The notes beneath the pieces are model-generated. The model did not search any database. It saw only the letters and a program-made list of their open reading frames with translations, and was not told the DNA's origin. A DNA stretch of 64,000 nucleotides. It comes from Rhodanobacter sp. Lineage in GTDB: Bacteria; Pseudomonadota; Gammaproteobacteria; Xanthomonadales; Rhodanobacteraceae. This document shows positions 17,256-40,800 of the stretch, one piece after another. The translations under genes were made by a program, and so were the position numbers. The stretch lies in the NCBI GenBank assembly GCA_040371205.1, contig AP031382.1:1051562-1115561 (forward strand), read 5' to 3'. Numbering within the stretch: the first letter of the stretch is position 1; every line of letters starts with the position of its first letter.

Positions 17256-18569
17256 ATGTTCGCCTATTACTTCCAACTCGGCCTGCGCAGCCTGCGCCGC
17301 AACCCGGCGCTCACCGCGCTGATGGTGATGGCGATCGGCTTCGGCGTGGCCGCGTCGATGACCACCTACTCCGTGTTCCGCGCGGTGTCGGGCAATCCCA
17401 TTCCGGACAAGGCGGCACAGCTGTTCACCCCGCAGGTGGACGCCTGGGGGCCGCAGCAAAATCTCAAGGGCGGCGAGCCGGCCGAAGCGCTGGGCTACAT
17501 CGACGCGATGGCGCTGATGCGCGCGCACCAGGCGAAGCGGCAGACATTGCTGTACCCGGTACAGCTTTCGGTCATACCGGGCGGTGATCGCGATATGCCC
17601 TTGAACGCCACCGGCTACGCCGTCACCAGCGATTTCTTCAGCATGTTCGAGGTGCCGTTCCGCTATGGCAGCGGCTGGAGCACGCAGGATGACGACGCGC
17701 GTGCCGCCGATGTCGTCATCAGCGACGTGCTCGACCAGAAGCTGTTCGGTGGCGCCGACAGCGTGGGCCGCACGCTCAACCTTGGCGGGCACGACTACCG
17801 CATCGTGGGCGTCGCCAGCCACTGGAATCCGCGCCCGCGTTTCTACGACCTGTTCAGCACCAGCGGCTTTGCCGACGAACCGGACGTCTACATGGTGCTC
17901 AACCGGGCGCTGGATCTGCAGATGCGCACCGGCGGCCGCAACAGTTGCCGCGGCTCGCTCGACTTCACCACCTGGCAGGAGTACCTGCAGAGCAATTGTG
18001 TGTGGATCACGCCATGGGTGGAGCTGGACAGCCCGGCCGATGTCGCCGGCTACCGGCGCTTCCTCACCAACTATGCCGCCGAGCAGCAGCATGCGGGTCG
18101 CTTCAACTGGTCGCCGAACGTGCGCCTGCGCGACGTGGTGCAGTGGATGGACTACGAGCAGGTGGTGCCGCCGGAGAGTCGCATATCGCTGGCGGTGGCG
18201 CTGGGTTTCTTCCTGATCTGTCTGGTCAACACCATCGGCCTGCTGCTGGCCAAGTTCATGCGCCGCGCCGGCGAGATCGGCGTGCGCCGCGCACTGGGCG
18301 CCACGCGCGGGGAGATCTATGCGCAATACCTGATCGAGGCCGGCACGGTGGGCCTGGCCGGCGGCGCGCTGGGTCTGCTGCTTACCGCGGCGGGGGTGGG
18401 CGGCGTGGGCGTGCTGTTCCGGCCCGAGATCGCGAGGCTGGCGAAGCTCGATCCGTCGCTGGTGGCGCTCACGTTCGCCGTGGCCATCGTCGCCACGGTG
18501 CTCGCGGCGTTCTATCCGGCATGGCGCGCGGCGCACGTGCAGCCGGCCTGGCAACTGAAGTCGAGCTGA
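17256..18569 (+). CDS. MacB/FtsX-type ABC permease A1
   Basis: 437 residues with MacB topology: one N-terminal helix (about 15-40), a large periplasmic MacB_PCD-like domain (about 45-305), then three helices of the FtsX domain. The cytoplasmic coupling segment is RRAGEIGVRRALGATRGEI, as in MacB. Like all A genes it begins with Met-Phe-x-Tyr-Tyr and has the DFFSMFEVPFRYGSGW motif. The periplasmic Cys pair C231/C248 precedes a conserved VxWxxxWVELD segment. It is most like A3 (shared AVSGxPIP, LFxPQxD, DAWG/DIWG). B1 follows after 10 bases, so A1/B1 probably form a heterodimer. Confidence 0.9.
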   Translation: MFAYYFQLGLRSLRRNPALTALMVMAIGFGVAASMTTYSVFRAVSGNPIPDKAAQLFTPQVDAWGPQQNLKGGEPAEALGYIDAMALMRAHQAKRQTLLYPVQLSVIPGGDRDMPLNATGYAVTSDFFSMFEVPFRYGSGWSTQDDDARAADVVISDVLDQKLFGGADSVGRTLNLGGHDYRIVGVASHWNPRPRFYDLFSTSGFADEPDVYMVLNRALDLQMRTGGRNSCRGSLDFTTWQEYLQSNCVWITPWVELDSPADVAGYRRFLTNYAAEQQHAGRFNWSPNVRLRDVVQWMDYEQVVPPESRISLAVALGFFLICLVNTIGLLLAKFMRRAGEIGVRRALGATRGEIYAQYLIEAGTVGLAGGALGLLLTAAGVGGVGVLFRPEIARLAKLDPSLVALTFAVAIVATVLAAFYPAWRAAHVQPAWQLKSS

Positions 18570-18579
18570 GGAATACGCC

Positions 18580-19821
18580 ATGAATATCCAGATCAGGCCC
18601 ATCCTCGTCGCCTTGCGCCGGCACAAGGCGGGCACCTTGCTGATCGCGCTGCAGATCGCGTTGACCCTGGCCATCGTGTGCAATGCGCTGTTCATCATCC
18701 ACCAGCGGCTGGCCAACCTATCCGAGGCCAGTGGCGTTGACGAAGCGGACGTGTTCGTCGTCGCCAACTATTGGGCCGACGTGAACCGGTCGACGGAGCA
18801 GGTCGATGCGCAAGTTCGCGCCGATCTGGCCGCGCTGCGGCAACTGCCCGCCGTACTCGATGCCACGCCTGCCAGCGGCTACCCGCTGCGGGGCGGCGGC
18901 TGGGACAACTTCGTCACCAAGACCCCCGACCAGGTCAAGCCGACCACGGACGCGGCGGTGTACACCGGCGACGAGCATTTCATCGACACGCTGGGCCTGA
19001 AACTCGTCGCGGGGCGCAACTTCCGTCCCGACGAGGTGATGGTGATGGGCACCCAGCAGGCGATCACCCCGCCGACGGCGATCGTGAGCAAGGCGCTGGC
19101 CGAGCGCCTGTTCCCCGGCGGCGACGCGCTGGGCAAGAGCTTCTACGCGATGGGCACCACGCCGAGCACCATCATCGGCATCGTCGATCCGCTGCATCGG
19201 CAAGGTGTCGATTCGTCGAGCAACAGCTACGCCGGGCAGGCACTGATCTGGCCGTTGCGGGCGGACGATTCGAAAGGCATCTATTACATCGTGCGCGCCA
19301 AGCCCGGTCAGCTCGCCGCGGCGATGCGCGAGGCGCCCAAGGCGCTGTTCGCGCAAAGCCGGATGCGCATCATCGACCCGAAGGACGGTGTCCAGGACTA
19401 CGCCACCATCCGCCACAAGGTGTTCGACAGCGACCGCGGCATGGCGATCCTGATGGGCATCATCTGCGCGGTGCTGCTGGCGATCACCGCCGCAGGCATC
19501 GTCGGCCTCACCAGTTTCTGGGTGGGCCAGCGGCGCAGGCAGATCGGCGTGCGCCGCGCGCTGGGCGCGCGGCAGCGCGACATCCTCGCGTACTTCCTCA
19601 CCGAGAATTTCCTCATCAGCGTTGCCGGCGTGGCGCTGGGCACCGTGCTGGCCATCGTCTTCAACCTGTGGACGATGACCCGCTTCGCGATGGCCCCGAT
19701 GTCGATGGCCTATGTGGGCGTGGGTGTGCTGGTGCTGCTGTTGCTGGGGCAGGGCGCCGTGCTGGCGCCGGCGCTGCGCGCCTCGCGCGTGCCGCCGGTG
19801 GAAGCGACGCGCGGCAGCTGA
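18580..19821 (+). CDS. MacB/FtsX-type ABC permease B1
   Basis: 413 residues. B-type partner of A1: short Met-start followed by IRPILVALRRHK, one helix containing the B-family IVCNA motif, a periplasmic domain, and a three-helix FtsX domain with the coupling segment QRRRQIGVRRALGARQRDI. The C-terminus reads VPPVEATRGS, whereas most B proteins end VPPVVATR. The periplasmic domain has no Cys. It is closest to B3 (RRHKAG, LIALQIALTLAIVCNA), paralleling the A1-A3 similarity. Ribosome site GAGGA precedes the ATG. Confidence 0.9.
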   Translation: MNIQIRPILVALRRHKAGTLLIALQIALTLAIVCNALFIIHQRLANLSEASGVDEADVFVVANYWADVNRSTEQVDAQVRADLAALRQLPAVLDATPASGYPLRGGGWDNFVTKTPDQVKPTTDAAVYTGDEHFIDTLGLKLVAGRNFRPDEVMVMGTQQAITPPTAIVSKALAERLFPGGDALGKSFYAMGTTPSTIIGIVDPLHRQGVDSSSNSYAGQALIWPLRADDSKGIYYIVRAKPGQLAAAMREAPKALFAQSRMRIIDPKDGVQDYATIRHKVFDSDRGMAILMGIICAVLLAITAAGIVGLTSFWVGQRRRQIGVRRALGARQRDILAYFLTENFLISVAGVALGTVLAIVFNLWTMTRFAMAPMSMAYVGVGVLVLLLLGQGAVLAPALRASRVPPVEATRGS

Positions 19822-19867
19822 CTTTTCATCCCGCGGCGTGCGGGCGACGCATGGAGGAAGACTGGAC

Positions 19868-21175
19868 ATGTTCCGTTACTACATCGACCTCGCCTTGCGC
19901 AGCCTCGGGCGCAACAAGGTGCTTACGGCGCTGATGGTGCTGGCCATTGCGCTGGGCATCGGTGCGTCGATGACCACGCTCACCGTGCTGCACGTGCTGT
20001 CGGGCGATCCGCTGCCGGGGCGCAGCGGCACGCTGTACTACCCGCAGATCGACCCGCGCGACAGCCAGGGCTACCTGCCCGGCAAGACGCCGCCGATGGA
20101 CCAGGTGACCTGGACCGACGGCATGAACCTGCTGCGTGCGAAGCGCGCGGACCGGCAGGCGCTGATGACCGGCGGCGACGTGGCGGTGCAACCTGGCGAG
20201 AGCACGCTCGACCCGTTCTACGAGGATGCGCGCTTCACCACCGCCGGGTTCTTCCCGATGTTCGGCGTGCCGTTCGCATACGGCCACGCCTGGGGCGGGG
20301 CGGAGGACGAGGCGCATGCGCGCGTGGCGGTAATCAGTAGCACGCTCAACGACAAATTGTTCGGCGGCAAGGACAGCACCGGGCAGACGCTGCGCCTGTC
20401 CGGCACCGACTTCCGCATCGTCGGCGTGATCGGCGACTGGAACCCCAATCCGCATTTCTACGACCTCGACCGCGCGAGCTACAACGAGGACGAAGGCGTG
20501 TACGTGCCGCTGTCCACCTCGCAGGACGTGGGCATGAACCACGACGGCAACGTCGAGTGCTGGGGCAACGGCGGCAACGGCATCAATCCCATCCACGATT
20601 CGCCCTGCACATGGCTACAGTTCTGGGTGCAACTGGACAGCCCGGCCAAGGCGACGGCGTACAGGCAGTTCCTCGTCAACTACTCGGAGCAGCAGAAGGC
20701 GCTTGGGCGTTTCCAGCGGCCGCCGAACGTGCAGTTGCGCAACGTGATGCAGTGGCTGGACTACAACCAGGTAGTGCCCGACGACGTGCGCCTGCAGAAC
20801 GGATTGGCGTTCGGTTTCCTGCTGGTGTGCCTGGTCAACACGGTGGGCCTGATGCTGGCGAAGTTCCTGCGCCGCGCGGGCGAGCTGGGCGTGCGCCGCG
20901 CACTGGGCGCGTCGAAGCGCGCGCTGTTCGCGCAGTTGCTGGTCGAGGCCGGCGTGGTCGGCATGGTCGGCGGCGTCGGCGGCTTGCTGCTGGCTTTCGC
21001 CGGCCTGTGGTTGGTGCGGCAGCAGCCGGCCAGCTATGCCGCGCTGGCGCATCTCGATCCGGCGATGCTGCTGGCCACCTTCCTGCTGGCCCTGGGCGCG
21101 AGCCTGTTGGCCGGCCTGTTGCCCGCGTGGCGCGCCTGCCAGATCGCGCCAGCGCTGCAGCTCAAGAGCCAATGA
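19868..21175 (+). CDS. MacB/FtsX-type ABC permease A2
   Basis: 435 residues with A-type layout. It starts MFRYYIDLALRSLGRNKVL, then TTLTVLHVLSGDPLPGRSGTLYYPQID. The periplasmic Cys pair is C231/C247 (ECWG to SPCTW). Coupling segment: RRAGELGVRRALGASKRAL. The ATG at 19868 was chosen over an upstream in-frame GTG/ATG inside B1, because every A protein begins with this Met-Phe-x-Tyr-Tyr sequence and GGAGGA precedes it. B2 follows after 11 bases. N-terminal wording places it with A5, A7 and A8. Confidence 0.9.
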   Translation: MFRYYIDLALRSLGRNKVLTALMVLAIALGIGASMTTLTVLHVLSGDPLPGRSGTLYYPQIDPRDSQGYLPGKTPPMDQVTWTDGMNLLRAKRADRQALMTGGDVAVQPGESTLDPFYEDARFTTAGFFPMFGVPFAYGHAWGGAEDEAHARVAVISSTLNDKLFGGKDSTGQTLRLSGTDFRIVGVIGDWNPNPHFYDLDRASYNEDEGVYVPLSTSQDVGMNHDGNVECWGNGGNGINPIHDSPCTWLQFWVQLDSPAKATAYRQFLVNYSEQQKALGRFQRPPNVQLRNVMQWLDYNQVVPDDVRLQNGLAFGFLLVCLVNTVGLMLAKFLRRAGELGVRRALGASKRALFAQLLVEAGVVGMVGGVGGLLLAFAGLWLVRQQPASYAALAHLDPAMLLATFLLALGASLLAGLLPAWRACQIAPALQLKSQ

Positions 21176-21186
21176 GGAGCGGCACC

Positions 21187-22422
21187 ATGGAACTGCGACC
21201 GATCCTCTCCACGCTGCGCCGGCACAAGGTCACCTCGTGGCTGCTGGTGCTGGAGATCGCGCTCACCTGCGCGATCGTCTGCAACGCCGTGTTCATGATC
21301 GGCCAGCGGCTGCATCGCATGAACCTGCCCAGCGGCGTCGCCGAACACCAACTGCTGCAGATCCAGCTGGGCGGTATCGGCCCGAAATCCGACGCCGATG
21401 CGCAGACGGAAACCGATCTGGCCGCACTGCGGCAGATTCCTGGCGTGCGTCAGGCGACGATGACCAACCAGTTGCCCTTCAGTTTCGGCAGCGACTCCAA
21501 CGGTACCCTCATGCTGGACCCGCACCAGCAGCAGGGAACCGCGCAGGTTGCGCAGTACATGGGCGGCGTGGGCTTGCTGGCGACGCTGGGCACGCGACTG
21601 ATCGCCGGGCGCGACTTCGAACCCGGCGAATACGTCGATTTCGATGCGGCGGTGCAGGCGCTGCACGACGACAATACGCGCGGCCTGCCGCAAGACCTCA
21701 TCATCACCCGCGGACTGGCCGAGCGCCTGTGGCCCGGGGAGAGTGCGCTGGGCAAGACGGTGTATTTCGGCAAGGCCCTGCCGTTTCGCGTCATCGGCGT
21801 GGTCGCCAACCTGGCGCGGCCGAAGAATCATTGGGATGGCGTGGAGTACAGCACGCTCTGGCCGATCCGCATGACGTCGGCGGAGGGGGCGAGCTACATC
21901 CTGCGCACCGCGCCGCAGGATCGCCAGGCGGTACTCAAGGCCGCCGTGGCCAAGCTCAAGCAGCTCGACCCCAACCGCGTGGTGCTGGTGAAGCGCACCT
22001 ACGACGAGGCACGCCATGAGTATTTCGCCAACGACCGCGCGATGGCCGGCATCCTGGTCGGCGTGATCGCGGCCCTGCTGATCGTGACCGCGCTAGGCAT
22101 CGTCGGCCTGGCCAGTTTCTGGGTGGGGCAGCGCCGGCGCACCATCGGCGTGCGCCGCGCGCTGGGCGCCACGCGCGGCGACATCCTGCGCTACTTCCTC
22201 ACCGAGAACTTCTTGCTGGCCGGCTTCGGCATCGCGCTGGGCATGGTGCTGGCCTACGGCATGAACCTGTTCCTGATGGTGCATTACGAATTGCCGCGCT
22301 TGCCCGGCATCTATTTTCCGGTGGGCGCCGCGGTGCTGTGGATCATCGGCCAGTGCGCCGTGCTCGGCCCCGCGTTGCGCGCCGCGAACGTGCCGCCGGT
22401 GGTGGCGACCAGAAGCGTCTGA
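21187..22422 (+). CDS. MacB/FtsX-type ABC permease B2
   Basis: 411 residues with B-type layout. It starts MELRPILSTLRRHK, with TM1 motif AIVCNAVFMIGQR. The periplasmic domain begins with SGVAEHQLLQIQLGG and contains the ALRQIPGVRQ motif seen in most B proteins. The FtsX domain has SFWVGQRRRTIGVRRALGATR and the protein ends VPPVVATRSV. No periplasmic Cys. It is the partner of A2 and is followed by an 87-base gap with two hairpins. Confidence 0.9.
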   Translation: MELRPILSTLRRHKVTSWLLVLEIALTCAIVCNAVFMIGQRLHRMNLPSGVAEHQLLQIQLGGIGPKSDADAQTETDLAALRQIPGVRQATMTNQLPFSFGSDSNGTLMLDPHQQQGTAQVAQYMGGVGLLATLGTRLIAGRDFEPGEYVDFDAAVQALHDDNTRGLPQDLIITRGLAERLWPGESALGKTVYFGKALPFRVIGVVANLARPKNHWDGVEYSTLWPIRMTSAEGASYILRTAPQDRQAVLKAAVAKLKQLDPNRVVLVKRTYDEARHEYFANDRAMAGILVGVIAALLIVTALGIVGLASFWVGQRRRTIGVRRALGATRGDILRYFLTENFLLAGFGIALGMVLAYGMNLFLMVHYELPRLPGIYFPVGAAVLWIIGQCAVLGPALRAANVPPVVATRSV

Positions 22423-22462
22423 AAGTTTTCCCCTTCCCGCGCTAGCGGAAGAAGGGAATGGC

Positions 22463-22481: not shown

Positions 22482-22509
22482 GAGGGGAAGATCAACGAAG
22501 GAGTGCGAC

Positions 22510-23835
22510 ATGTTCGGCTACTACCTCGACCTGGCCTTGCGCAGCCTCAAGCGCAGCCCCGGCCTCACCGCGCTGATGGTGCTAGCCATCGGCTTCGGCG
22601 TGGCCGCCTCGATGACCACCTGGTCGGTGTTTCGCGCCGTGTCGGGCGACCCGATTCCGTGGAAGTCGTCCAAGCTGTTCGTGCCGCAGCTCGACATCTG
22701 GGGGCCGGACAGCCGCAAGAAGGGCGGCTACAACGACATCGCCGACGCGTTCGACTACACCGACGCGGTGGCGCTGATGCGCGACCACCGCGGCAAGCTG
22801 CAATCGGCGATGTACCAGGTGTCGCCGTCGGTGGTGCCGGCGGATGCCGCCAAGCATCCGATCAACGTCACCGGGCATGCGGTGTTCAGCGAGTTCTTCC
22901 CGATGGTGGATGCGCCGTTCAAGTACGGCAGCGGCTGGAGCGCGCAGGACGACCAGAACCGTTCGCGCGTGCTGGTGCTGAGCGACAAGCTCAACCAGAA
23001 GCTGTTCGGCGACGTCAACAGCGTGGGCAGGAGCGTCGACATCGAAGGCAAGGACTACCGCGTGGTGGGCGTGGTCGCGCACTGGAATCCGCAGCCGCGC
23101 TACTACGACGTGGTCAACACCGGCGGCTTCGTCGGCGACGGCGCCGAGGACGTGTTCCTGCCGTTCAACACCGCCATCGACGTGGGTATGCCCAACAACG
23201 GCAACACCAACTGCAACGCGATCCCCAAGGAGTCGGGCTTCGTCGGCCTGCAGCATTCCACCTGCGTATGGATTTCCTACATGGTGGAGCTGGACAACGC
23301 CGCGCAAGTGGAGAGCTACCGGAACTACCTCGAAGGCTACATGCGCCAGCAACAGCAGGCGGGCCGCTTCAACTGGCCGCCCAAATACGAGTTGCGCGTG
23401 CTGCCCGACTGGCTGAGCTTCGAGCATGTGGTGCCGGACGACACCAAGGTGTCGCTGCTCGTGGCGCTGGGCCTGTTGATCGTCTGCCTGGTGAATACCG
23501 CGGGCCTGCTGCTGGCGAAGTTCCTGCGCCGCAGCGGCGAGATCGGCGTGCGCCGCGCGCTCGGCGCGCCGCGCAATGCGGTGTACGCGCAGTTCCTCAC
23601 CGAGGCGGGCATGGTCGGCGCGGCGGGCGGCGTGCTCGGCCTGTTGCTCACCGGCGTGGGCGTGGCCTGCGTGGGCTGGGTGCTGCCCAAGGACATCGCC
23701 GCGCTGGCGAAGCTGGACGTCTCGTTGTTGGCCATGACCCTGCTGGTGGCGGTGGTCGCCACCGTGCTGGCCGGCCTGTATCCCACCTGGCGAGCCTCGC
23801 GCGTGCAACCCGCGTGGCAGCTGAAGAGCAATTGA
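22510..23835 (+). CDS. MacB/FtsX-type ABC permease A3
   Basis: 441 residues with A-type layout (MFGYYLDLALRSLKRSPGL). The periplasmic Cys pair is C235/C252 (TNCNA to STCVW). The coupling segment is RRSGEIGVRRALGAPRNAV. It is the closest relative of A1, sharing the GFGVAASMTT start of helix 1 and PIPWKSSKLFVPQLDIWG. An in-frame ATG at 22465 exists, but 22510 has the GAAGGAG ribosome site and the family N-terminus. B3 follows after 10 bases. Confidence 0.9.
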   Translation: MFGYYLDLALRSLKRSPGLTALMVLAIGFGVAASMTTWSVFRAVSGDPIPWKSSKLFVPQLDIWGPDSRKKGGYNDIADAFDYTDAVALMRDHRGKLQSAMYQVSPSVVPADAAKHPINVTGHAVFSEFFPMVDAPFKYGSGWSAQDDQNRSRVLVLSDKLNQKLFGDVNSVGRSVDIEGKDYRVVGVVAHWNPQPRYYDVVNTGGFVGDGAEDVFLPFNTAIDVGMPNNGNTNCNAIPKESGFVGLQHSTCVWISYMVELDNAAQVESYRNYLEGYMRQQQQAGRFNWPPKYELRVLPDWLSFEHVVPDDTKVSLLVALGLLIVCLVNTAGLLLAKFLRRSGEIGVRRALGAPRNAVYAQFLTEAGMVGAAGGVLGLLLTGVGVACVGWVLPKDIAALAKLDVSLLAMTLLVAVVATVLAGLYPTWRASRVQPAWQLKSN

Positions 23836-23845
23836 GGAGCGCGCC

Positions 23846-25099
23846 ATGACCATCCATCCCATGATCTCGGCGCTGCGCAGGCACAAGGCGGGCGTGGTGC
23901 TGATCGCGCTGCAGATCGCGCTGACCCTGGCCATCGTCTGCAACGCGGTGTTCATCATCGGCCAGCGCATCCAGCGCGTGAACCGGCCCACCGGCCTGGA
24001 CGAACAAAACCTGTTCCTCGTCTCCCAGCAGTGGGTGGGCGCGCCAGCCGGCGACGATCCGGCCAGCATCCAGAAGCTGGACGCCTTGCTGCGCGAGGAC
24101 CTCGCCGCGTTGCGCGCCATGCCCGACGTGGCCTCGGTGACGCCGACCAACTCGCTGCCGTTGCTCAATTCGAGCTGGAACGGCTCGGTCTCGCTGCACG
24201 CCGACGCCAACCTGATCGGCGGCAACGCGCGCACCACGTACTACTTCGGCGACGAGAACTTCGTGCGCACGCTGGGCCTGCATCTGGTCGCCGGGCGCGA
24301 CTTCAATGCGGGCGACGTCACCAACAAAGGCTTCCGCGACCCCAGCGAACCCACGGTGGTGATCGTGACCAAGGCGCTGGCCGACAAGCTGTTCCCGAAG
24401 GGCGATGCGGTCGGCAAGGTCGTCTATCTCGACGGCAGCGGCACGCCCAGCACCATCATCGGCGTGGTCGAGCGCCTGCAGGTGCCCGCCACCGGCAGCT
24501 GGGTCAGCGACTTTGCCTGGAACGCGACCATCGCGCCGGTGCGCCTCAACGCCAACTTCGCGCGCTACGCCGTGCGCACCAAACCGGGGCGGCTGCAGGC
24601 CGCGATGAAGGCGGTCACGTCCACGCTGTACAAGGTCGACCCGCTGCGCGTGCTCGACGACGACAGCGTCAAATCGTTTGCCGACATCCGTACCCAGGCC
24701 TACCGCGCCGACGTGGGCATGGCCGCGCTGATGGGCGTGATCTGCCTGATCCTGCTCGGCGTCACCGCCGCCGGCATCGTCGGCTTGACCAGTTTCTGGG
24801 TGGGTCAGCGCCACCGCCAGATCGGCGTGCGCCGCGCGCTGGGCGCACGCAAGGCGGACATCCTGCAGTACTTCCAAATGGAGAACCTGCTGATCGCCGG
24901 CCTCGGCGCGGCGGTGGGGATCGCGCTGGCCGTCGGCCTCAACCTGCTGTTGATGAAGTACTACGAAATGGACCGCATGCCGGTGCTCTACGTGCTGGCC
25001 GGCGTGGTGCTGGTGCTGGCGCTGGGGCAGGGCGCGGTATTCGCGCCCGCCCGCCGCGCCTCCAACGTGCCGCCGGTGGTGGCGACGCGGGCGGCTTGA
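23846..25099 (+). CDS. MacB/FtsX-type ABC permease B3
   Basis: 417 residues with B-type layout (MTIHPMISALRRHKAG, TM1 motif AIVCNAVFIIGQR). The FtsX coupling segment is QRHRQIGVRRALGARKADI and the protein ends VPPVVATRAA. It is closest to B1, matching the A1-A3 relationship, so the pair was probably duplicated as a unit. Ribosome site GAGGAG. It is followed by the longest gap in the array (145 bases), which contains a long stem-loop. Confidence 0.9.
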   Translation: MTIHPMISALRRHKAGVVLIALQIALTLAIVCNAVFIIGQRIQRVNRPTGLDEQNLFLVSQQWVGAPAGDDPASIQKLDALLREDLAALRAMPDVASVTPTNSLPLLNSSWNGSVSLHADANLIGGNARTTYYFGDENFVRTLGLHLVAGRDFNAGDVTNKGFRDPSEPTVVIVTKALADKLFPKGDAVGKVVYLDGSGTPSTIIGVVERLQVPATGSWVSDFAWNATIAPVRLNANFARYAVRTKPGRLQAAMKAVTSTLYKVDPLRVLDDDSVKSFADIRTQAYRADVGMAALMGVICLILLGVTAAGIVGLTSFWVGQRHRQIGVRRALGARKADILQYFQMENLLIAGLGAAVGIALAVGLNLLLMKYYEMDRMPVLYVLAGVVLVLALGQGAVFAPARRASNVPPVVATRAA

Positions 25100-33003: not shown

Positions 33004-34326
33004 ATGTTCGGTTACTACCTCGACCTGGCCCTGCGCAGCCTCAAGCGCAACAAGGTGCTCACCGCGCTGATGGTGCTGGCCATCGCGGTGGGCATCGGCG
33101 CCAGCATGACCACGTTGACGGTGATGCATGTGCTGTCAGGCGATCCGCTGCCCGGCCGAAGCGGCACGCTGTTTTTTCCGCAGGTCGACCCGAACCCCTA
33201 CACAGATGGGCCGTCGCTGCCCTACGACATGATGGACTACCGTTCGGCGCTCGATTTGTGGAGTGCGCACCGGGCCGACCGGCAGGCGCTGATCGCGCAC
33301 GGCCAGCTGAAGCTGACCGCGCCGCAGGTGAGCCTGCCGCCGCTGATGGCGCAGGTGCTGTCCACCACCAGCGACTTTTTCCCGATGTTCGACGTGCCGT
33401 TTCGCTATGGCCGTGGGTGGTCGGCGCAGGACGACGCGAACCGCGCACGGGTCGCCGTGATCTCCTCGGACCTCAACGACAAGCTGTTCCACGGCGCCGA
33501 CAGCGTGGGCCGCACGATCCGGTTGAAAGACTCCGACGTGCGCATCGTCGGCGTGCTGGGCGCGTGGCGCCCCTCACCGCAATTCTACGACGTGGCCGGC
33601 GGGCGCTTCGCCGACGGCCAGACGGGCGACTTTTACGGTCGTCCGGAAGACGTGTTCATGCCGCTCAACAGTTCGTCGGACATCGATCCTGCGGGCTTCA
33701 ATTTCTTTACCTGCTGGAGCATGCCCAAAAGCGATGCGAATCTGCAGACCTCGCCCTGCGTGTGGGTGACGCTTTGGGTGCAGCTGGACAGCGCGGCCAA
33801 GGTTCGCGACTACCGTCAGTTCGTGGCCGGCTACGCCACTCAACAGAAGGCTCTCGGGCGCTTCGCGCGTGCCGACAATACGCAGCTGCGCAGCCTGATG
33901 GGATGGCTGGACTTCAATCACGTGGTACCCAGCGATGTGCGTTTGCAGATGTGGCTGGCCTTTGCGTTTCTGTTGATCTGCTTGTTCAACACCGTCGGCC
34001 TGCTGTTGGCGAAGTTCCTGAGCCGAGCCGGCGAGATCGGAGTGCGGCGCGCGCTCGGTGCCAGTCGTGCAGCGGTGCTGGCGCAGTGCCTGTTCGAGGC
34101 GGGATTGATCGGTCTGCTCGGCGGTGGCGGCGGCCTGCTTCTGACCCTGCTGGGACTGTGGCTGGTACGTCGCCAGCCGGTGGCCTATGCCGACCTGGTG
34201 CATCTGGATGCGGCGATGTTCCTGCTCACGTTTGCGCTGGCGATCGCCACCAGCCTGCTCGCCGGGTTGCTGCCCGCATTGCGTGCCAGCCGCATGGCGC
34301 TCGGTCTGCAGCTGAAGATCACTTGA
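33004..34326 (+). CDS. MacB/FtsX-type ABC permease A7
   Basis: 440 residues with A-type layout (MFGYYLDLALRSLKRNKVL, MHVLSGDPLPGRSGTLFFPQVD). The periplasmic Cys pair is C237/C252 (FTCWS to SPCVW). The coupling segment is SRAGEIGVRRALGASRAAV. The ATG at 33004 fits the family N-terminus and a normal distance from GAGGAGA; an ATG at 32998 would add two residues but sits too close to that site. B7 follows after 11 bases. Confidence 0.9.
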   Translation: MFGYYLDLALRSLKRNKVLTALMVLAIAVGIGASMTTLTVMHVLSGDPLPGRSGTLFFPQVDPNPYTDGPSLPYDMMDYRSALDLWSAHRADRQALIAHGQLKLTAPQVSLPPLMAQVLSTTSDFFPMFDVPFRYGRGWSAQDDANRARVAVISSDLNDKLFHGADSVGRTIRLKDSDVRIVGVLGAWRPSPQFYDVAGGRFADGQTGDFYGRPEDVFMPLNSSSDIDPAGFNFFTCWSMPKSDANLQTSPCVWVTLWVQLDSAAKVRDYRQFVAGYATQQKALGRFARADNTQLRSLMGWLDFNHVVPSDVRLQMWLAFAFLLICLFNTVGLLLAKFLSRAGEIGVRRALGASRAAVLAQCLFEAGLIGLLGGGGGLLLTLLGLWLVRRQPVAYADLVHLDAAMFLLTFALAIATSLLAGLLPALRASRMALGLQLKIT

Positions 34327-34337
34327 GGACGACGGCC

Positions 34338-35552
34338 ATGCTCATCCGCCCCATTTTCGCCTCCTTGCGCAAGCATCGTCTTGCCACTTTCCTGATCGCT
34401 ATGGAGATCGCGCTGGCCTGCGCGGTGCTGTGCAATGCCTGCTTTCTGATCGTCAACAGGGTGCAGCAGATCCGCATCCACAGCGGCGTCGACGAGAGCG
34501 CCCTGGCCGCCATCCGGCTCACCGGTTTCGACGACGGCCAGGGCGTCGACCTCAATGCCCGCGTGCTCAGCGGCCTGGCAAAGGTTCCGGGCATGCAGTC
34601 GGTCAGCGTGATCAGCGCCGTCCCGTTCGGCGGTTTCGCCAACAATGCCGGCATCGCCACGGATGCAGCCGGCAAGCAGTTTGCCGGCGTGGTGAATTTC
34701 TATTCGGGCGGCCCGGGCAGCTTCAAGGCACTCGGCCTTCAACTGATTGCGGGACGCCTGCCGCAGGATGGCGACTATCAGCCCGTGATCCACTTCGTAC
34801 CCGACGACGCGCTGGTGTGGGTCACCAAGTCGTTGGCCGATCATGCATGGCCCGGCGTCGATCCGCTGGGTAAGGAGTTCTGGGTCGGCAAGCCCCATTT
34901 CCGGGTGGCTGGCGTGGTGGCGCACCTGGCGCGGCCTGCTCCGGGCGAGGGCGGGCCGTCCACCATCGATTGGTCGGTGTTCGTGCCTTCCCAACCCGGC
35001 GCGCACTTCGCCGGAAGCTACCTCTTGCGTGCGTCGCCTGCGCAACTGCCGCGCGTGCTTCGCGATGCGCGCGCGGCCATCGCCAGGATCGCCCCAGACG
35101 CGGTGCTGGACACCGCCGCCAGCCAGAGCGTGACCAACCTGCGCGAAAGCTTCTTCCAGCAGGACGGCAGCATGGCCCGCATCCTGCTAGGCGTCATCGC
35201 CGCGATGCTGCTGGTCACGGCGCTGGGTATCGTCGGGCTGGCCAGCTTCTGGGTGGCGCAACGGCGCAGGCAGATCGGCATCCGCCGCGCGCTGGGCGCC
35301 ACGCGCGGCGACATCCTGCGCTACTTCCAGACCGAAAACTTTCTCATCGTGAGTCTTGGCATCGCGCTAGGCATGCTGATCGCCTACGTGCTCAACGCCG
35401 TGCTGATGGAGTTCTACGAACTGCCGCACCTGCCGCTGTACTACCTGCCGATCGGCGCATTCGCGCTCTGGGCGCTGGGCCAGCTCGCCGTGCTCGGCCC
35501 GGCGCTGCGCGCATCGCACGTGCCGCCGGTGGTGGCGACACGCAGCGTGTGA
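34338..35552 (+). CDS. MacB/FtsX-type ABC permease B7
   Basis: 404 residues with B-type layout (MLIRPIFASLRKHRLA, TM1 AVLCNACFLIVNR). The periplasmic region is unusual: SGVDESALAAIRLTGFDDGQG followed by a Gly-rich stretch (GGFANNAG, NFYSGGPGSF). The coupling segment is QRRRQIGIRRALGATRGDI and the protein ends VPPVVATRSV. It has no periplasmic Cys. It is the partner of A7. Confidence 0.9.
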   Translation: MLIRPIFASLRKHRLATFLIAMEIALACAVLCNACFLIVNRVQQIRIHSGVDESALAAIRLTGFDDGQGVDLNARVLSGLAKVPGMQSVSVISAVPFGGFANNAGIATDAAGKQFAGVVNFYSGGPGSFKALGLQLIAGRLPQDGDYQPVIHFVPDDALVWVTKSLADHAWPGVDPLGKEFWVGKPHFRVAGVVAHLARPAPGEGGPSTIDWSVFVPSQPGAHFAGSYLLRASPAQLPRVLRDARAAIARIAPDAVLDTAASQSVTNLRESFFQQDGSMARILLGVIAAMLLVTALGIVGLASFWVAQRRRQIGIRRALGATRGDILRYFQTENFLIVSLGIALGMLIAYVLNAVLMEFYELPHLPLYYLPIGAFALWALGQLAVLGPALRASHVPPVVATRSV

Positions 35553-35603
35553 GGTTCTTCCCTTCCCTTGCGGAAGGGCGCAGTACAAACGAGGGGAAAG
35601 GGA

Positions 35604-36908
35604 ATGTTCGGCTACTACCTTGATCTGGCACGACGCAGCCTCCAGCGCACGCCGGTGCTCACCGGCCTCATGGTGCTGGCGATCGGGCTGGGCATCGGTG
35701 CGTCGATGACGATGCTGACGGTACTGCACGTGATGACCGACGACCCGATGCCGGGGCGTAGCGCGTATCTGTTCCGTCCCTATCTGAACCCGGTGCCGCT
35801 TCGCATGAATCGGGGCATGGGGCCCGATCCAAGCATCAACCTCACCTGGCCGGATGCCATGGCCTTGTTGCATGCACGCAAAGGGACATACCAGGCGGCC
35901 ATGGCGGGAAACAGCCTGGTGGTGACGCCCGTGCAGGGGCGGCTTCGCCCGTTCACCGCCGACGGACGCATGACGACGCGGGACTTATTCGCCATGTTCG
36001 GGCTCCGCTTCGTCGCAGGCGCTGCATGGAGCGCCGAGCAGGACGATGGCGCCGCGGCAGTCGTGGTCGTTTCCCGTTCATTCGCGCAGCGAGTGTTCGG
36101 GAAGACGCAAGTCGTCGGCAGCGTCGTGTCGATGGGCGGGCACGATTTCCGCGTGATCGGCGTGGTCAGCGATTGGGCGCCGCGCCCCATGTTCTACGTC
36201 GATGCGTCGGAGAAGCGCTATGCGGGCGCCGATGCGTTCTTCATGCCGTTGTCGACCGGAATGGCCTTGAATCTAGGCACCAATGGCAACCAGAGCGGCT
36301 GGGGCTCGGATGAAAACAACCTGCACAGCCCTACCGTGACGTGGTTGCAGTTCTGGGTGGAACTCGACTCGCCGGCTGCCGTAGCCGGCTACCGGCGCTT
36401 TCTGTACGACTACGCGGCAAGCCAGAAGGCGGCAGGAAGGTTCCAGCAGCCGGCGTCGACGGCGCACTTGTACGGATTGATGGGCTGGCTCGGAAAGCAG
36501 CACATCGTTCCCGGCGATGTGAACATGCAGGCCGGGTTGGCGCTGATTTTTTTTGGCGTCTGCTTGCTCAATATCGTGGCCTTGCTGTTGGCCAAATACC
36601 TGCGGCGCGCGGCCGAGGTCAGCGTGCGGCGTGCGCTCGGCGCCTGCCGCCGGGACATTTTCGTGCAGTTCTCCGTCGAGTCGGCGCTGATCGGCCTGCT
36701 GGGCGGCGCTGTGGGGCTGGTGGCGGCAGAGTTGGGCCTGTGGAGCGTGCGCCAGCGGCCGGACGACTACGCCCATTTGGCCCGCATGGATTTGCCGATG
36801 CTTGCATTGGCGTTGACTGCTTCCGTCCTCGCAAGCGTGGCCGCCGGTGTCTTGCCGGCTTGGCGGGCTGCGTCGGTAGCTCCGGCCATGCGGCTCAAAT
36901 CTCAGTGA
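35604..36908 (+). CDS. MacB/FtsX-type ABC permease A8
   Basis: 434 residues with A-type layout (MFGYYLDLARRSLQRTPVL, VLHVMTDDPMPGRSAYLF). Both periplasmic Cys positions are lost (SGWG and SPTVTW where A2 has ECWG and SPCTW). The coupling segment AAEVSVRRALGACRRDI deviates from the EIGVRR consensus. Its base use is slightly less GC-biased than its neighbours, with a run of eight T at 36547-36554. A strong ribosome site (GAGGGGAAAGGGA) precedes the ATG. B8 follows after 13 bases. Confidence 0.88.
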   Translation: MFGYYLDLARRSLQRTPVLTGLMVLAIGLGIGASMTMLTVLHVMTDDPMPGRSAYLFRPYLNPVPLRMNRGMGPDPSINLTWPDAMALLHARKGTYQAAMAGNSLVVTPVQGRLRPFTADGRMTTRDLFAMFGLRFVAGAAWSAEQDDGAAAVVVVSRSFAQRVFGKTQVVGSVVSMGGHDFRVIGVVSDWAPRPMFYVDASEKRYAGADAFFMPLSTGMALNLGTNGNQSGWGSDENNLHSPTVTWLQFWVELDSPAAVAGYRRFLYDYAASQKAAGRFQQPASTAHLYGLMGWLGKQHIVPGDVNMQAGLALIFFGVCLLNIVALLLAKYLRRAAEVSVRRALGACRRDIFVQFSVESALIGLLGGAVGLVAAELGLWSVRQRPDDYAHLARMDLPMLALALTASVLASVAAGVLPAWRAASVAPAMRLKSQ

Positions 36909-36921
36909 AGGAGGACATGGT

Positions 36922-38181
36922 ATGCGTGTGCCGCCGATGATTGCCGCGCTCGGTCGCCACCGACTGACGTGCTGGCTGCTTGTCCTGCAGGCGGCCGTGA
37001 CCTGCGCGGTGGTGTGCAACGCCGCCTTCATGGTGACGCAGCGCGTGCAGCGGGTGAATGAGCCGAGCGGGCTGCGCGAATCCGGACTGTCGATCATGTC
37101 GCTATCGCTGGCCAAACTGCACGACGACCAGCTTGCCCAGTACCTGGGAGATGTCGATGCCTTGCGGCGCATCCCAGGCGTGCAGGCGGCGGCGCTGGTG
37201 GACGGCGTTCCGTACCTTGGCGGGGAATCCTCCGGGACGACGTGCGGTAGCCTGGATGCGGTCCGTCGCATGTTGGCTGCGCGTGCCGACGTACCGGGTT
37301 GTGCGGAGCCGGTGTTGTACAGCGGTGGACGACAGGTTCTTCAGGCGTTGGGGTTGACCTTGGTGGCCGGCCGGGATTTTCGCGACGGCGACTACGTGCA
37401 CGGGAAAGCCGGTTACCAAATGGGCGACGCATCGTCGGTGATCGTCAGCCAGAGCCTGGCGCGACGCCTTTATCCCGAGGGAAACGCGGTTGGGCAGATG
37501 GTCTACTTCGGCGCCGGTTTGTCGAAAGGGCAGGGCCAGCGGATCGTTGGCGTCGTGGAGCATCTGCAGCGCGGCATCCTGGGTAAGGCGATCGATGACG
37601 ATCAGGCCGTGCTGGTCCCGTCCGAGCCGGCGGATGCATCCGTCCTGTTTGCCTTGCGCAGCGCTGCGCGCGATCAGCGGCGCGTATTGGCGGCGGCCGC
37701 GGCATTGCTCGACGAACGCCATCCGGATCGTCTGCAGGATCCGAATTTCGGACGTCCGTATGCGCAGGTCCGTGCCGCCTACTTCCAGCGCGACCGCACC
37801 ATGATCGGCCTGCTGATCGCCTCAGCGCTGGGTCTGCTGTTCGTCACTGCGCTGGGCATTGCGGGGCTCGCCAACTTCTGGGTACAGCAGCGCACGCGCA
37901 GCATCGGCATCCGCCGTGCGATAGGCGCGACACGCGGCGACATCCTGCGTTACTTCCAGGCCGAGAACTTCCTGATCGTCGGCGTGGGCATCGTGCTTGG
38001 CATGCTGCTCGCACTGGCGCTCAATCTATGGCTGATGCAGCAATATGAGTTGACCCGCCTGCCGTGGCCGTACCTGCCGGTAGGCGCGCTGCTGCTGTGG
38101 CTGCTGGGGCAAGGCGCCGTGCTGGCGCCGGCGCTGCGCGCGGCCGCGGTTCCGCCGGTGGTGGCGACACGCACGATATGA
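36922..38181 (+). CDS. MacB/FtsX-type ABC permease B8
   Basis: 419 residues with divergent B-type layout (VPPMIAALGRHRLTC, TM1 AVVCNAAFMVTQR). The coupling segment is QQRTRSIGIRRAIGATRGDI and the protein ends VPPVVATRTI. It is the only B protein with a periplasmic Cys pair, C108 and C127, within an insertion after LGGESSG. Its partner A8 is one of the two A proteins that lost the usual pair. Ribosome site AAGGAGG. Confidence 0.88.
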   Translation: MRVPPMIAALGRHRLTCWLLVLQAAVTCAVVCNAAFMVTQRVQRVNEPSGLRESGLSIMSLSLAKLHDDQLAQYLGDVDALRRIPGVQAAALVDGVPYLGGESSGTTCGSLDAVRRMLAARADVPGCAEPVLYSGGRQVLQALGLTLVAGRDFRDGDYVHGKAGYQMGDASSVIVSQSLARRLYPEGNAVGQMVYFGAGLSKGQGQRIVGVVEHLQRGILGKAIDDDQAVLVPSEPADASVLFALRSAARDQRRVLAAAAALLDERHPDRLQDPNFGRPYAQVRAAYFQRDRTMIGLLIASALGLLFVTALGIAGLANFWVQQRTRSIGIRRAIGATRGDILRYFQAENFLIVGVGIVLGMLLALALNLWLMQQYELTRLPWPYLPVGALLLWLLGQGAVLAPALRAAAVPPVVATRTI

Positions 38182-38234
38182 ACCTTGCGCCGCCGCACAT
38201 GCGGTGAGCCTGCACGAACAGGAGGAGTGGACGG

Positions 38235-39554
38235 ATGATGGATTACTACCTGCGACTGGCGCTTAGCCGCTGCCGGCAGAACGTGCCGATGGTGTTGCTG
38301 TTGGTGTTGACCATGGCCATCGGCATTGCTTCCACCATGACGGCGCTGACGATTTTTCGCGCATTGGCGGGTGCGCCGCTGCCGGGCGTCAGTCCCTCTT
38401 TGTACGTGGCGACGATGGATGCGCGCGAGTCGGTGGACAAGGACAACCCCGACTACAAGCAGCCGGACAGCCTGCTGAAATTCGCCGACGCCAAGGCGCT
38501 GGTGGACGCGCACCGCGCCGTGCAGCAGGTGGCGGTGGCGCAGAGCCTCACGCAGATCGGCCGGCCGGATGGCGATCAGTCGGCTCAAGCCTATGGCCTG
38601 ATGGCCTACGGTCCGGTGTTGCAGGCCTTCGGCGTGCCCTTGCGCTACGGCCGGCCGTGGACGGAGGCCGAGCTGGCATCCAACGCGCCGGTGTTGGTGA
38701 TCGACACCCATACGGCGCAGAAGCTGTTCGGCACCGAGAACGCCGTGGGTCGCAGCGTGACGCTGGGGCGACGAAGTTTCCGCGTGATCGGCGTGAGTGC
38801 GCCGTGGAAACCGCGCGTGCAGATGTTCGACGTGGCGCAAAGCCGCGGCAACCTGATGGGACAGGACGAGAACTTCTTCGTGCCGGCGGAGGCCTCGCTG
38901 GATGCCGGAGTGGGGCCGCTCATCGCCGGCGAGTGCGGCAAGGATGCGCCGGTGGCCAGCTTCCAGTCCACGCAGGTTTCGCAGTGCCGCTGGCTGGAAG
39001 CCTGGGTGCGGCTGGACACGCCGGCGCAAGTGAGCGCCTATGGCCCGTTCCTCGCCGGTTACGCGAATGCCCAGCACGACGCGGGGCGTTTCGTGTATCC
39101 GCCGCAGGCAAGGCTGTACAGCACTCAGGCGTGGCTGGCGCTGAACCACGTGGTGCCGGATGACGTGCACCTCAACCTGATGCTGGCGGGCGGCTTCCTG
39201 CTGCTGTGTCTGGTCAACGTGGCCGGGTTGCTGGCCGCGCGTTTTCTGCGCCGGCAGGGCGACGTGGCGATCCGTCGCGCGCTGGGCGCCTCGAAGCGCG
39301 ACGTGTTCGTGCAGCATCTGGTGGAGACCGGTCTGCTCGGCCTGCTCGGCGGCGTGCTGGCCTTGCCGCTCACGTGGTTGGGTTTGTGGATAGTGCGCAT
39401 GCAGCCGGTGAGCTACGCGGAGGCCGCTCGCTTCAGTCCTGGCGTGTTCGCGATCCTGCTGGCGCTCTCGGTGGGCGTGGGGCTGGTGGTTGGCATTCTG
39501 CCGGCATGGCGTGTTTGCCGGCAGCCGCCGGCGTTGCAGATCAAGCTGGCCTGA
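38235..39554 (+). CDS. MacB/FtsX-type ABC permease A9
   Basis: 439 residues. The most divergent A protein: MMDYYLRLALSRCRQNVPM replaces the usual start, and TM1 ends with IFRALAGAPLPGVSPSLYVATMD. The Cys pair C234/C251 is retained (GECGK to SQCRW). The coupling segment is RRQGDVAIRRALGASKRDV. The start could be either of two adjacent ATGs (38235 or 38238); GAGGAG lies upstream. B9 follows after 10 bases. Confidence 0.88.
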   Translation: MMDYYLRLALSRCRQNVPMVLLLVLTMAIGIASTMTALTIFRALAGAPLPGVSPSLYVATMDARESVDKDNPDYKQPDSLLKFADAKALVDAHRAVQQVAVAQSLTQIGRPDGDQSAQAYGLMAYGPVLQAFGVPLRYGRPWTEAELASNAPVLVIDTHTAQKLFGTENAVGRSVTLGRRSFRVIGVSAPWKPRVQMFDVAQSRGNLMGQDENFFVPAEASLDAGVGPLIAGECGKDAPVASFQSTQVSQCRWLEAWVRLDTPAQVSAYGPFLAGYANAQHDAGRFVYPPQARLYSTQAWLALNHVVPDDVHLNLMLAGGFLLLCLVNVAGLLAARFLRRQGDVAIRRALGASKRDVFVQHLVETGLLGLLGGVLALPLTWLGLWIVRMQPVSYAEAARFSPGVFAILLALSVGVGLVVGILPAWRVCRQPPALQIKLA

Positions 39555-39564
39555 GGAGAGCCCC

Positions 39565-40800
39565 ATGCGACACATCGTCAAGCCACTGCTTCGCCAACGC
39601 ATGATGCCTTTGCTGGTCGCGCTGCAGGTGGCGCTGGCCTGCGCCATCGCCTGCAACGCGCTGTTCCTGCTGCAGCAGAAACTGGTGCCCATCGTGACGC
39701 CGGATGGCGTGGGGCAGCCGGATTGCCTGATCGTGGCGTGGAACATCGCGCCGCGCGGCAACCCGTGGCCGCCGGCCACCTTGCGCCAGACGGCGACAGA
39801 GCTGCGTGCCATCCCCGGCGTGGCGTCGGCCAGCCTCGCCGCCTCGTGGCCGATGGAGACCATGGCGCAGTTGAGCGGTACCGTGGTTGCGGAGGGCAAG
39901 GGCATCAAGGCCAGCGCGTCGGTCTACATCGGCGACCACCTGCTCGATACCCTGGGCCTGAAACTGCTGGAGGGGCGCAACTTCAGTGCGGGCGAGGACG
40001 CCTTGATCTACAAGGGCATGGGGCTGGAGGCCGACGGGCCGGCGATCATCACGCAGGCGCTGGCCCGGCACCTGTTCCCCGATGGCGATGCGCTGGGCAA
40101 GGTCATCCGCATCGGCGACCAGGCGGATGCCGCACGGCGCACCGTGGTGGGCGTGGTCGCGCATCTGATGCGCAACAAGTTCGGCCAGGACGACCGTGAG
40201 GACGTGGACTACACCTTGCTGTTCCCCGGCACCCCGTCGAACTGGCCGGTGCCGATCTTCGGCGTGCGGGTGCGTTCCAAGGCGGAAGCCACTGGCGTGC
40301 TCAAGGCCATGAAGGCCGTGGTCCAGCGCGAGCTGGGACCGAACATGATCCAGGGCATCGACCCGGCCTACGAGAGTTACGGCGACATGCGCGAACGCAT
40401 GCTGGCGCAATCGAAGGCCGCCGTGTGGCTGCTGTCCGGCGTCAGCCTGATCGTGCTGCTGGTCACCGTGGTCGGCATCATGGGCCTCACCAGCTACTGG
40501 GTGCAGCAACGCGCGCGGCAGATCGGCATCCGCCGCGCGCTGGGTGCGCAGCGCGGCAACATCCTGCGCGAGGTGCAACTGGAGAACCTGCTGGTGGTGG
40601 GCGTGGGCATCCTGTTCGGCATGGTGCTGGCCTATGCGATCAACCTGTGGCTGATGCACCGCTACGAACTGTCGCGCCTGCCGTGGAACTATCTGCCCTA
40701 CGGCGCCGCGCTGATGCTGCTGCTCGGCCAGTGCGCGGTGCTGTCGCCGGCGCTGCGCGCCGCGCGGGTGCCGCCGGTGGTGGCGACGCGCAGCGTGTGA
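39565..40800 (+). CDS. MacB/FtsX-type ABC permease B9
   Basis: 411 residues with B-type layout (MRHIVKPLLRQRMMP, TM1 AIACNALFLLQQK). The coupling segment is QQRARQIGIRRALGAQRGNI and the protein ends VPPVVATRSV. It contains KKxFGQD/DREDVDYTLLF-like sequence not seen in the other B proteins. It is the partner of A9 and the last permease gene, followed after 87 bases by the sigma-54 activator gene. Confidence 0.88.
   Translation: MRHIVKPLLRQRMMPLLVALQVALACAIACNALFLLQQKLVPIVTPDGVGQPDCLIVAWNIAPRGNPWPPATLRQTATELRAIPGVASASLAASWPMETMAQLSGTVVAEGKGIKASASVYIGDHLLDTLGLKLLEGRNFSAGEDALIYKGMGLEADGPAIITQALARHLFPDGDALGKVIRIGDQADAARRTVVGVVAHLMRNKFGQDDREDVDYTLLFPGTPSNWPVPIFGVRVRSKAEATGVLKAMKAVVQRELGPNMIQGIDPAYESYGDMRERMLAQSKAAVWLLSGVSLIVLLVTVVGIMGLTSYWVQQRARQIGIRRALGAQRGNILREVQLENLLVVGVGILFGMVLAYAINLWLMHRYELSRLPWNYLPYGAALMLLLGQCAVLSPALRAARVPPVVATRSV

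Follow-up and report, generated by a model that had tools for sequence, protein, structure and literature searches.

The DNA analysed here, a 64,000-nucleotide stretch of Rhodanobacter sp. (contig AP031382.1, positions 1,051,562 to 1,115,561; the whole stretch is called the window), belongs to a genome assembled as one contig of 3.48 Mb. It carries a + strand operon (13658-45003) in which genes for a periplasmic adaptor, an ATPase and a TolC-type protein are followed by nine tandem pairs of permease genes (A1/B1 to A9/B9), a response regulator, a sensor kinase and an SPFH-type gene. The reading favoured here, with a probability of about 0.6, is that of a type VII (MacB/LolCDE-like) ATP-binding cassette (ABC) exporter, in which one motor and one adaptor serve interchangeable A-B heterodimers. 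Reading frames and a genome search bear out a preliminary description of the array: all 18 permease genes are open between 17256 and 40800 and run in one direction, and the gaps between pairs, measured on all nine, span 46-145 bases. The gaps within pairs, previously given as 7-13 bases, are of 7-11 bases, with a 4-base overlap of A5 and B5 and a B8 gap of 28 or 13 bases according to the choice of start. The array is neither a chance arrangement nor a local assembly error, since this gene order is found in 12 arrays of the genus, the present one among them.

A search of the genome with the MacB_PCD model recovers 15 of the 18 array permeases, and 15 of the 27 matches in the genome lie inside the array. 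The MacB layout ascribed earlier to all 18 thus holds for 15 by this model, while B2, B5 and B8 fail the search and are recognised instead because they match the ADOP permease model in its second half. MacB_PCD and FtsX domains without an ATPase domain are found in the four permeases (of 18) scanned with Pfam, and a scan for ABC ATPase motifs agrees that the permeases lack an ATPase domain of their own, as had been proposed. The features of type VII (MacB/FtsX/LolCE) permeases, in which a periplasmic domain lies between one N-terminal helix and three C-terminal ones, are present, with both domains in all four scanned proteins and a MacB-like fold in A2. The predicted structure of A2 has a predicted local distance difference test score (pLDDT) of 86, and a fold search with it has MacB as the top match, followed by LolC/LolE, HrtBA and YbbP, among others. 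The LolC/LolE models, where they match the permeases, give 18-34 bits, under their cut-off, and the DarB model 14-19 of 700 bits.

The relationship of A and B to ADOP (TIGR03434) had escaped the preliminary description. In the ten permeases scanned (of 18), every A covers positions ~5-401 of this model and every B positions ~410-801, with scores for the ten separate halves of 124-190 bits that do not reach the cut-off of 622.3. An ADOP holds both halves in one polypeptide; here they are encoded by separate genes in all nine pairs, and the permeases scanned follow the ADOP order of N-terminal then C-terminal half. One relative possesses a natural A-B fusion, a single frame of 857 amino acids that matches ADOP positions 8-801 with 341 bits, and other ADOP matches in relatives run from A into B across a single stop. 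A second in-frame A-B stretch (L144) was rejected as a fusion, its A being broken into two frames. The fusion model (pLDDT 80.6, predicted template modelling score 0.81) matches YbbP over most of its length. Of the alignments made for folding the fusion, one was used; two were discarded for setting B rows on the A half, as judged by the invariant columns, one for having no B rows, and a further one was left aside. Judged by these model matches, an A-B pair is in effect a split ADOP permease. The natural fusion makes an A-B interface likely, because it matches ADOP over its length, and each pair would most likely form one permease dimer.

Sequence divergence within the array follows the same partnership. 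Paralogues in the window are 33-66% (A) and 35-64% (B) identical. Across the 12 arrays and their 104 pairs, taken at thresholds of at least 1100 bases and at least 300 bits, the A and B distance matrices are correlated, with a mirror-tree r of 0.81-0.90 (permutation p 0.0005-0.0175). When the nearest A and the nearest B are looked up in another genome, the two turn out to be partners in 1020 of 1144 comparisons (~12% expected by chance). Judged by these measures, A and B evolve as partners. The coupling segments are more alike among paralogues than any other part measured (A 71%, B 76% identity), whereas the periplasmic parts reach 40% in A and 30% in B, a divergence that accords with the different periplasmic specificities suggested at the outset. 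Conserved coupling segments combined with divergent periplasmic parts are what would be expected if a common motor handled different substrates; the pattern fits such a motor and does not prove it.

The architecture was compared across the 12 same-genus arrays, 80 named loci kept of 352, a family sample of 117 genomes and a class sample of 274. The named relatives with the nearest adaptors belong to Rhodanobacter, Fulvimonas, Frateuria, Dyella and Luteibacter, which are soil and plant-associated Rhodanobacteraceae, and to metagenome bins. Pair number varies across strains: the same-genus arrays hold 5, 7, 7, 7, 8, 9, 9, 9, 9, 11, 11 and 12 pairs, and nine genomes of other genera have exactly one pair behind adaptor and ATPase, followed in the stretches fetched by the regulator in eight of nine and by the kinase in seven. 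Six Luteibacter loci carry one or two pairs each. Response regulator and kinase follow the pairs in all 12 same-genus arrays; the adaptor is present in 11, the exception being a mirrored contig of G005, and TolC in 11, G002 lacking it. That contig (G005:C44; L023, L024) shows the array twice as mirror images with 4.6 kb between them, probably a palindromic assembly error, and was counted once. The term tripartite, used earlier, is only partly right because the linked TolC is optional: it occurs in 20 of the 80 named loci (two of the 80 end before its place), the adaptor being present in all 80 by selection. A genes were found in at least 112 of the 117 family genomes and at least 25 of 26 genera, at 1 to at least 14 per genome; these counts are lower bounds (G090 has 14 there and 17 in a fuller count). 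The class sample has them in at least 7 of 274 genomes, including this one and two of the same order. None of the pairs in the 12 arrays is broken, so that one outcome named beforehand as refuting the proposal, breakage of most pairs in relatives, did not occur. Outside these arrays, A lies in two frames in L094, L121 and L144 (three of 80 loci), B has no preceding A in L086 and L092, B is split into two frames in G012, and A has a stop in G123. The array, its conservation and the A-B unit are solid at the level of sequence, and one ATPase and one adaptor with many A/B pairs is supported as a conserved, expanding architecture, in which pairs would have multiplied through duplication of the A-B unit.

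The preliminary description counted a single ATPase before the pairs. This holds for its number, as no second ABC ATPase was found by motif scan in any of the 12 arrays (a scan that the window's own split copy escaped); what had been overlooked is that the gene is frameshifted here. Profile searches place positions 1-130 and 133-217 of the ATPase gene starting at 15062 in different frames. An intact copy, matched over 234-241 residues and at least 94% identical to that of G009 (the reference, itself one of the intact genomes), exists in 12 of 14 same-genus relatives, the other two being incomplete genomes (85 and 87%). Eleven relatives have a single copy this close, and the mirrored G005 contig has two; the next-best ATPases are 58-60% identical and, in this genome, belong to another cluster. 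DarD is the best NCBIfam match (135 of 375 bits needed, for a partial gene), and the LolD model scores 106 of 308 bits on the partial gene, under its cut-off. That the system is dead or dying in this strain, with the ATPase genuinely a pseudogene and the array a relic, is unlikely, although the frameshift is found in a one-contig assembly: the gene is intact in the 12 relatives, and the 18 permeases, adaptor, regulator and kinase are all open. The two ATPase pieces show 98% and 96% identity to the intact copy of a relative. The lesion, judged from these sequences, is either a sequencing or assembly error or very recent, because both pieces keep 96-98% identity and the other operon genes are open.

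Many genomes hold A-B pairs away from the array, a point absent from the preliminary description along with the regulon and the small peptides described below. G090, for instance, has 17 A genes, of which ten lie outside its array of seven. In the 23 dispersed regions fetched (12 + 11), no adaptor was found, and an ABC ATPase is within reach in two: an MsbA-type exporter gene directly before this genome's dispersed pair, and in G001 an ATPase ~3.8 kb away on the opposite strand. Apart from these two cases, no dedicated unlinked ATPase accompanies the dispersed regions. This genome's pair (1793671-1796282) sits in a stretch of ~50% G+C (low-G+C island, L053:4908-12283), in a cluster with the MsbA-type exporter and a class III lanthipeptide synthetase LanKC (519 bits, under the cut-off of 575). 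A 43-residue frame in this cluster, which matches no NCBIfam model, may be a precursor; its LxLxxLDL-like start is one that we take to be typical of class III precursors. In G090, one dispersed pair adjoins a nonribosomal peptide synthetase (NRPS) module and a phosphopantetheinyl transferase. BlaR1/BlaI-type genes immediately precede two dispersed pairs, and other two-component systems precede two more; the remaining neighbourhoods were only glanced at.

A recurrent cassette in front of the adaptor links some of these pairs to the operon. The sigma-54 consensus has two exact matches in the window, against 0.29 expected. One precedes the adaptor; the other, at 59000-59014, is probably due to chance because it lies inside a reading frame. 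At the 101 loci compared, a sigma-54 promoter lies within 250 bp of the adaptor, matching exactly in 85, with one mismatch in 15 and with two in one; the palindrome TGTCCGCGGACA lies within 400 bp, exact in 92, with one mismatch in four and with three or four in five. These counts include nine genomes twice, and in L094 the best promoter match is 203 bp off, not ~45. No palindrome occurs within 400 bp of the 388 array A genes and 363 array B genes, even when one mismatch is allowed. Five of the 23 usable dispersed A genes (two A genes at contig ends were unusable) carry the exact palindrome, four with a sigma-54 site of at most one mismatch and one with two. The combined palindrome-promoter pattern is found in 86 of the 117 family genomes and a reversed control pattern in none of them. 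All 20 cassettes tallied in nine genomes (20 of 21 in 15 genomes, one of G028 being left out) lie before genes of three kinds: ten precede a small peptide, three a dispersed pair, and seven are of the main-operon type, 2.1-3.6 kb before the first array A. A -24/-12 promoter with an upstream site at fixed spacing, as in sigma-54 regulons, is thus present by sequence. The cis-regulatory cassette shared by the operon, some dispersed pairs and the peptides is solid as a sequence pattern, and the linked response regulator is the putative binder of its palindrome. Through promoter and palindrome, the two-component system would switch on all three.

It has to be weighed whether a TetR-family repressor, rather than the linked response regulator, uses the palindrome as its operator. 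Another 20 exact palindromes were fetched in the genus; ten of them are accompanied by a sigma-54 site (one mismatch at most) and followed by a peptide. Seven of the bare palindromes (L155, L157, L159, L162, L165, L169, L173) lie near a TetR-type gene, whose product might bind them, and have no such site. TolC-like or ThiC-like genes are also near these seven; the names TetR-type, TolC-like and ThiC-like are our assumption, TetR being confirmed by a scan for L162. Three others (L156, L161, L170) are near a gene presumed to be of the cold-shock type. The operator reading is rather improbable given the near-fixed distance at which the palindrome stands 5' of the sigma-54 promoter in operons, some dispersed pairs and peptides, and given that the linked regulator is a sigma-54 activator.

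The small peptides behind the cassette begin with MKxExLML and comprise a single hydrophobic helix, followed by a tail that ranges from none to ~45 residues. Many copies are just a helix of 28 residues, while in the longer ones the tail varies and holds two invariant cysteines close to its end. Neither of the two scanned matches Pfam or NCBIfam, and on this evidence the MKxE peptides are an undescribed family. In this genome two lie in tandem (281640-281834 and 281935-282108; region L154:4141-4612 = 281640-282111), behind an exact palindrome and a sigma-54 site with one mismatch, and have C-terminal cysteine pairs; in the relative G014 (L158) an M16 peptidase gene lies divergently beside such tandem peptides. 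The family sample has peptides in at least 69 of 117 genomes, 1 to at least 10 each. In all 20 loci found by protein similarity (six in the alignment used as query, 14 independent), the cassette stands ahead of the first peptide gene, palindrome and promoter each being exact in 18 and with one mismatch in two. Short forms of 28-51 residues have it before the first gene in 18 of 20 regions, at up to one mismatch in the palindrome and two in the promoter. Peptides occur in 65 of the 78 genomes that carry at least two A genes, against 4 of 39 with none or one (uncorrected for kinship), and the genus-level rank correlation of A genes and peptides is 0.58. No peptide lies beside the dispersed pairs of G090 by coordinates; outside this genome the check went no further than a pattern scan of the fetched loci. 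In L222, L224 and L233 a 28-residue peptide with cassette is followed by a similar gene of 392-402 residues; the one scanned (L166 = L222) encodes a beta-lactamase-family serine hydrolase nearest AmpH, under cut-off. Four near-identical 43-residue peptides, each with palindrome and promoter of one mismatch, are dispersed in G119 (L234-L237) and might represent a mobile cassette.

These elements can be arranged into a mechanism. Many heterodimers would have a single ATPase dimer and a single periplasmic adaptor in common, the TolC duct being encoded in this operon or at another locus. The coupling helices of A and B would dock the common ATPase; the divergent periplasmic domains would choose the substrate, whether in the periplasm or at the inner membrane, and hand it to adaptor and TolC. 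The earlier idea of one ATPase driving nine heterodimers is partly supported by the conserved one-ATPase arrays and the A-B partnership; the sharing of one motor by the pairs is itself something we infer, and consider likely. Outward transport, peptide substrates and the docking of one ATPase to all pairs are likewise what we infer. By analogy, the substrates are probably peptides from the periplasm, since a periplasmic peptide is a natural substrate of MacB-type exporters. Peptides such as STII and SDP are reported for MacAB-TolC and YknWXYZ in the review PMC5985334. It describes STII as reaching the periplasm through Sec, gaining disulfides and leaving via MacAB-TolC, and SDP, 42 residues long with a single disulfide, as a peptide from which YknWXYZ gives protection. 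Motor-less cassettes outside the array, such as the one inside the lanthipeptide cluster, would use the shared motor, and the peptides of local clusters would leave via the pair of their own cluster; the MKxE peptides may be exported as well. A wider version, held tentatively, makes the system a plug-in platform with a constant motor and adaptor, a sigma-54 switch and an open repertoire of split ADOPs, in which the membrane-anchored MKxE peptides, under that switch too, may be the main cargo and pairs in peptide biosynthesis clusters bring no motor of their own.

A competing and likewise possible, if somewhat doubtful, explanation is that the pairs are BceAB- or MacAB-like pumps removing foreign antimicrobial peptides or envelope-stress agents, the small peptides being pump partners or stress proteins. 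The linked two-component system and the four dispersed pairs behind BlaR1/BlaI-type genes or other two-component systems suit it, and many of the peptides, as bare 28-residue helices, would be odd cargo. AcrZ offers a precedent for AcrAB, according to PMC5985334. By this analogy, AcrZ-like partners are nearly as likely as cargo, because many peptides are only a helix. Pumps for foreign agents account less well for the longer peptides with variable tails and two conserved cysteines, and for the pairs in the lanthipeptide cluster and beside the NRPS module, though self-immunity would also fit the latter two.

Several observations weigh against the shared exporter and its regulon. Besides the frameshift in the window's own ATPase, the fusion model aligns to YbbP only at a template modelling score of 0.41-0.43. 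Other LolD-type ATPases (39-60% identical) are present in the genus and could serve some pairs. Eighteen of the 23 dispersed A genes lack the exact palindrome, and 10 of the 20 further exact palindromes have no sigma-54 site within one mismatch. Thirteen of the 78 genomes with at least two A genes have no detected peptide, and they include the whole sample from genus g24, seven genomes with 2-9 A genes each; the peptides are hence not a universal cargo. Fused-ADOP arrays of 8 (G030, L274-L275) and 13 permeases (G018, L271-L273) carry two ATPases, which calls for caution in assuming that one motor always suffices. Others have three permeases and one ATPase (this genome and G008) or one and one (G049), and by gene content many permeases per motor is not limited to split pairs. 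The cluster concerned in this genome (L012, 3070500-3086000) comprises adaptor, ATPase, three fused ADOPs, a sigma-54-type regulator and a kinase.

Could only the first, ancestral pair use the linked ATPase, the others depending on different LolD-type ATPases or on no ATP? Pair 1 keeps first place in 11 of 11 comparisons and its A1 is 79-88% identical, while several other pairs come and go; the further LolD-type ATPases and the two-ATPase arrays point the same way. Such a restriction is nevertheless improbable, as the coupling segments are the most similar of the parts measured between paralogues, no pair is broken in the 12 arrays, a dedicated ATPase stands beside dispersed pairs in just two cases, and the exact palindrome of the ATPase operon recurs at five dispersed pairs. 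A motor shared by the heterodimers stays the preferred reading.

The features of the operon are collected in Table 1. Searches of the window for RNA families and tRNAs found none. Sigma-70 promoter-like sites number 0 and 0 against 1.2 and 1.8 expected, and terminator-like sites 8 and 10 against 7.7 and 8.7, none of either standing out; on the + strand no terminator-like site falls in the between-pair gaps and one weak site overlaps the A1 start.

Table 1. Features of the operon, in window positions.
Feature	Position	Strand	Remark
Palindrome TGTCCGCGGACA, putative enhancer (upstream activating sequence, UAS) of sigma-54 response regulator	13519..13530	.	Exact site G000:C1:1065080-1065091
Sigma-54 (-24/-12) promoter TGGCAC-N5-TTGC	13598..13612	+	45 bp 5' of adaptor
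Periplasmic adaptor, HlyD/RND_mfp type	13658..14929	+	DarC-like, score under cut-off
ATPase gene, DarD/LolD-like, frameshifted here	15062..15787	+	First ~130 and last ~110 codons in different frames
TolC-type outer membrane factor, optional operon member	15831..17177	+	Domain/family scans
Permease A1, ADOP N-half	17256..18569	+	MacB_PCD + FtsX
Permease B1, ADOP C-half	18580..19821	+	Domain/family scans
Permease A2	19868..21175	+	Predicted structure, MacB fold
Permease B2	21187..22422	+	Alternative start 21172; ADOP match
Permease A3	22510..23835	+	MacB_PCD search
Permease B3	23846..25099	+	MacB_PCD search
Permease A4	25245..26552	+	MacB_PCD search
Permease B4	26560..27774	+	Alternative start 26554
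Permease A5	27835..29145	+	ADOP scan
Permease B5	29142..30362	+	4-base overlap with A5; ADOP match
Permease A6	30431..31738	+	MacB_PCD search
Permease B6	31749..32954	+	MacB_PCD search
Permease A7	33004..34326	+	Alternative start 32998
Permease B7	34338..35552	+	MacB_PCD search
Permease A8	35604..36908	+	MacB_PCD search
Permease B8	36937..38181	+	Alternative start 36922; ADOP match
Permease A9	38235..39554	+	Domain/family scans
Permease B9	39565..40800	+	Domain/family scans
Sigma-54-dependent response regulator, AtoC/NtrC type, Fis-type helix-turn-helix	40873..42228	+	In place in 12/12 same-genus arrays
Sensor histidine kinase with HAMP domain	42631..44016	+	In 12/12 same-genus arrays
Presumed SPFH/stomatin-like gene (our naming), conserved neighbour	44059..45003	+	In 8/12 arrays, some stretches ending earlier

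Among known systems, ADOP permeases (TIGR03434) are the closest by sequence: A and B match their N- and C-terminal halves over the length, and ADOP-type genes also occur in tandem in related genomes. Here, by contrast, the halves are two genes, score 124-190 against 622 bits and are linked to one ATPase, an adaptor and sigma-54 regulators, whereas ADOPs are said to lack adjacent ATPases. LolCDE has one permease pair per ATPase and neither adaptor nor TolC. It is likewise built, according to PMC5985334 and PMC8277102, from a heterodimer of two four-helix permeases and a separate ATPase, and the fold matches. It differs in the number of pairs, of which the present arrays have 5-12 per ATPase plus dispersed ones. 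MacAB-TolC and YknWXYZ share the MacB-fold permease, the adaptor and, for MacAB, TolC; MacB, however, is a homodimer with its own ATPase domain, and each pump has one permease type. As a rule, MacB-type exporters are described as having a single permease set for each motor. With DarBCD the likeness is that DarC and DarD are among the best NCBIfam matches of adaptor and ATPase, but all scores are far under the equivalog cut-offs (85 of 450 bits for the adaptor), and DarB is a single permease model of 777 positions. In the literature, subscription papers being largely outside the search, none of the papers listed dealt with such permease arrays or with MKxE peptides, and the palindrome TGTCCGCGGACA appeared in one unrelated human-gene paper.

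A shared motor has an experimentally tested parallel among importers. The MsmK/MsmX importers belong to the CUT1 family, another ABC fold, and we know of no precedent for a shared ATPase among exporters of the MacB fold. In Streptococcus pneumoniae, the MsmK ATPase is reported in PMC8579813 to serve six permease sets without an ATPase of their own. The genomic pattern of the present arrays fits this arrangement of one ATPase with several motor-less permease sets, the difference being that MsmK/MsmX systems import sugars while the present one would be a type VII export-type system. If the reading is correct, up to 12 heterodimers per motor would make the array the export counterpart of the shared MsmK ATPase. 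Substrate choice would then be testable, with motor and adaptor the same and the periplasmic domains different. The shared switch, which by sequence also controls the new small peptides and some dispersed pairs, would provide a handle on the substrates, and the arrangement could help to find which exporters partner orphan peptide clusters of soil bacteria.

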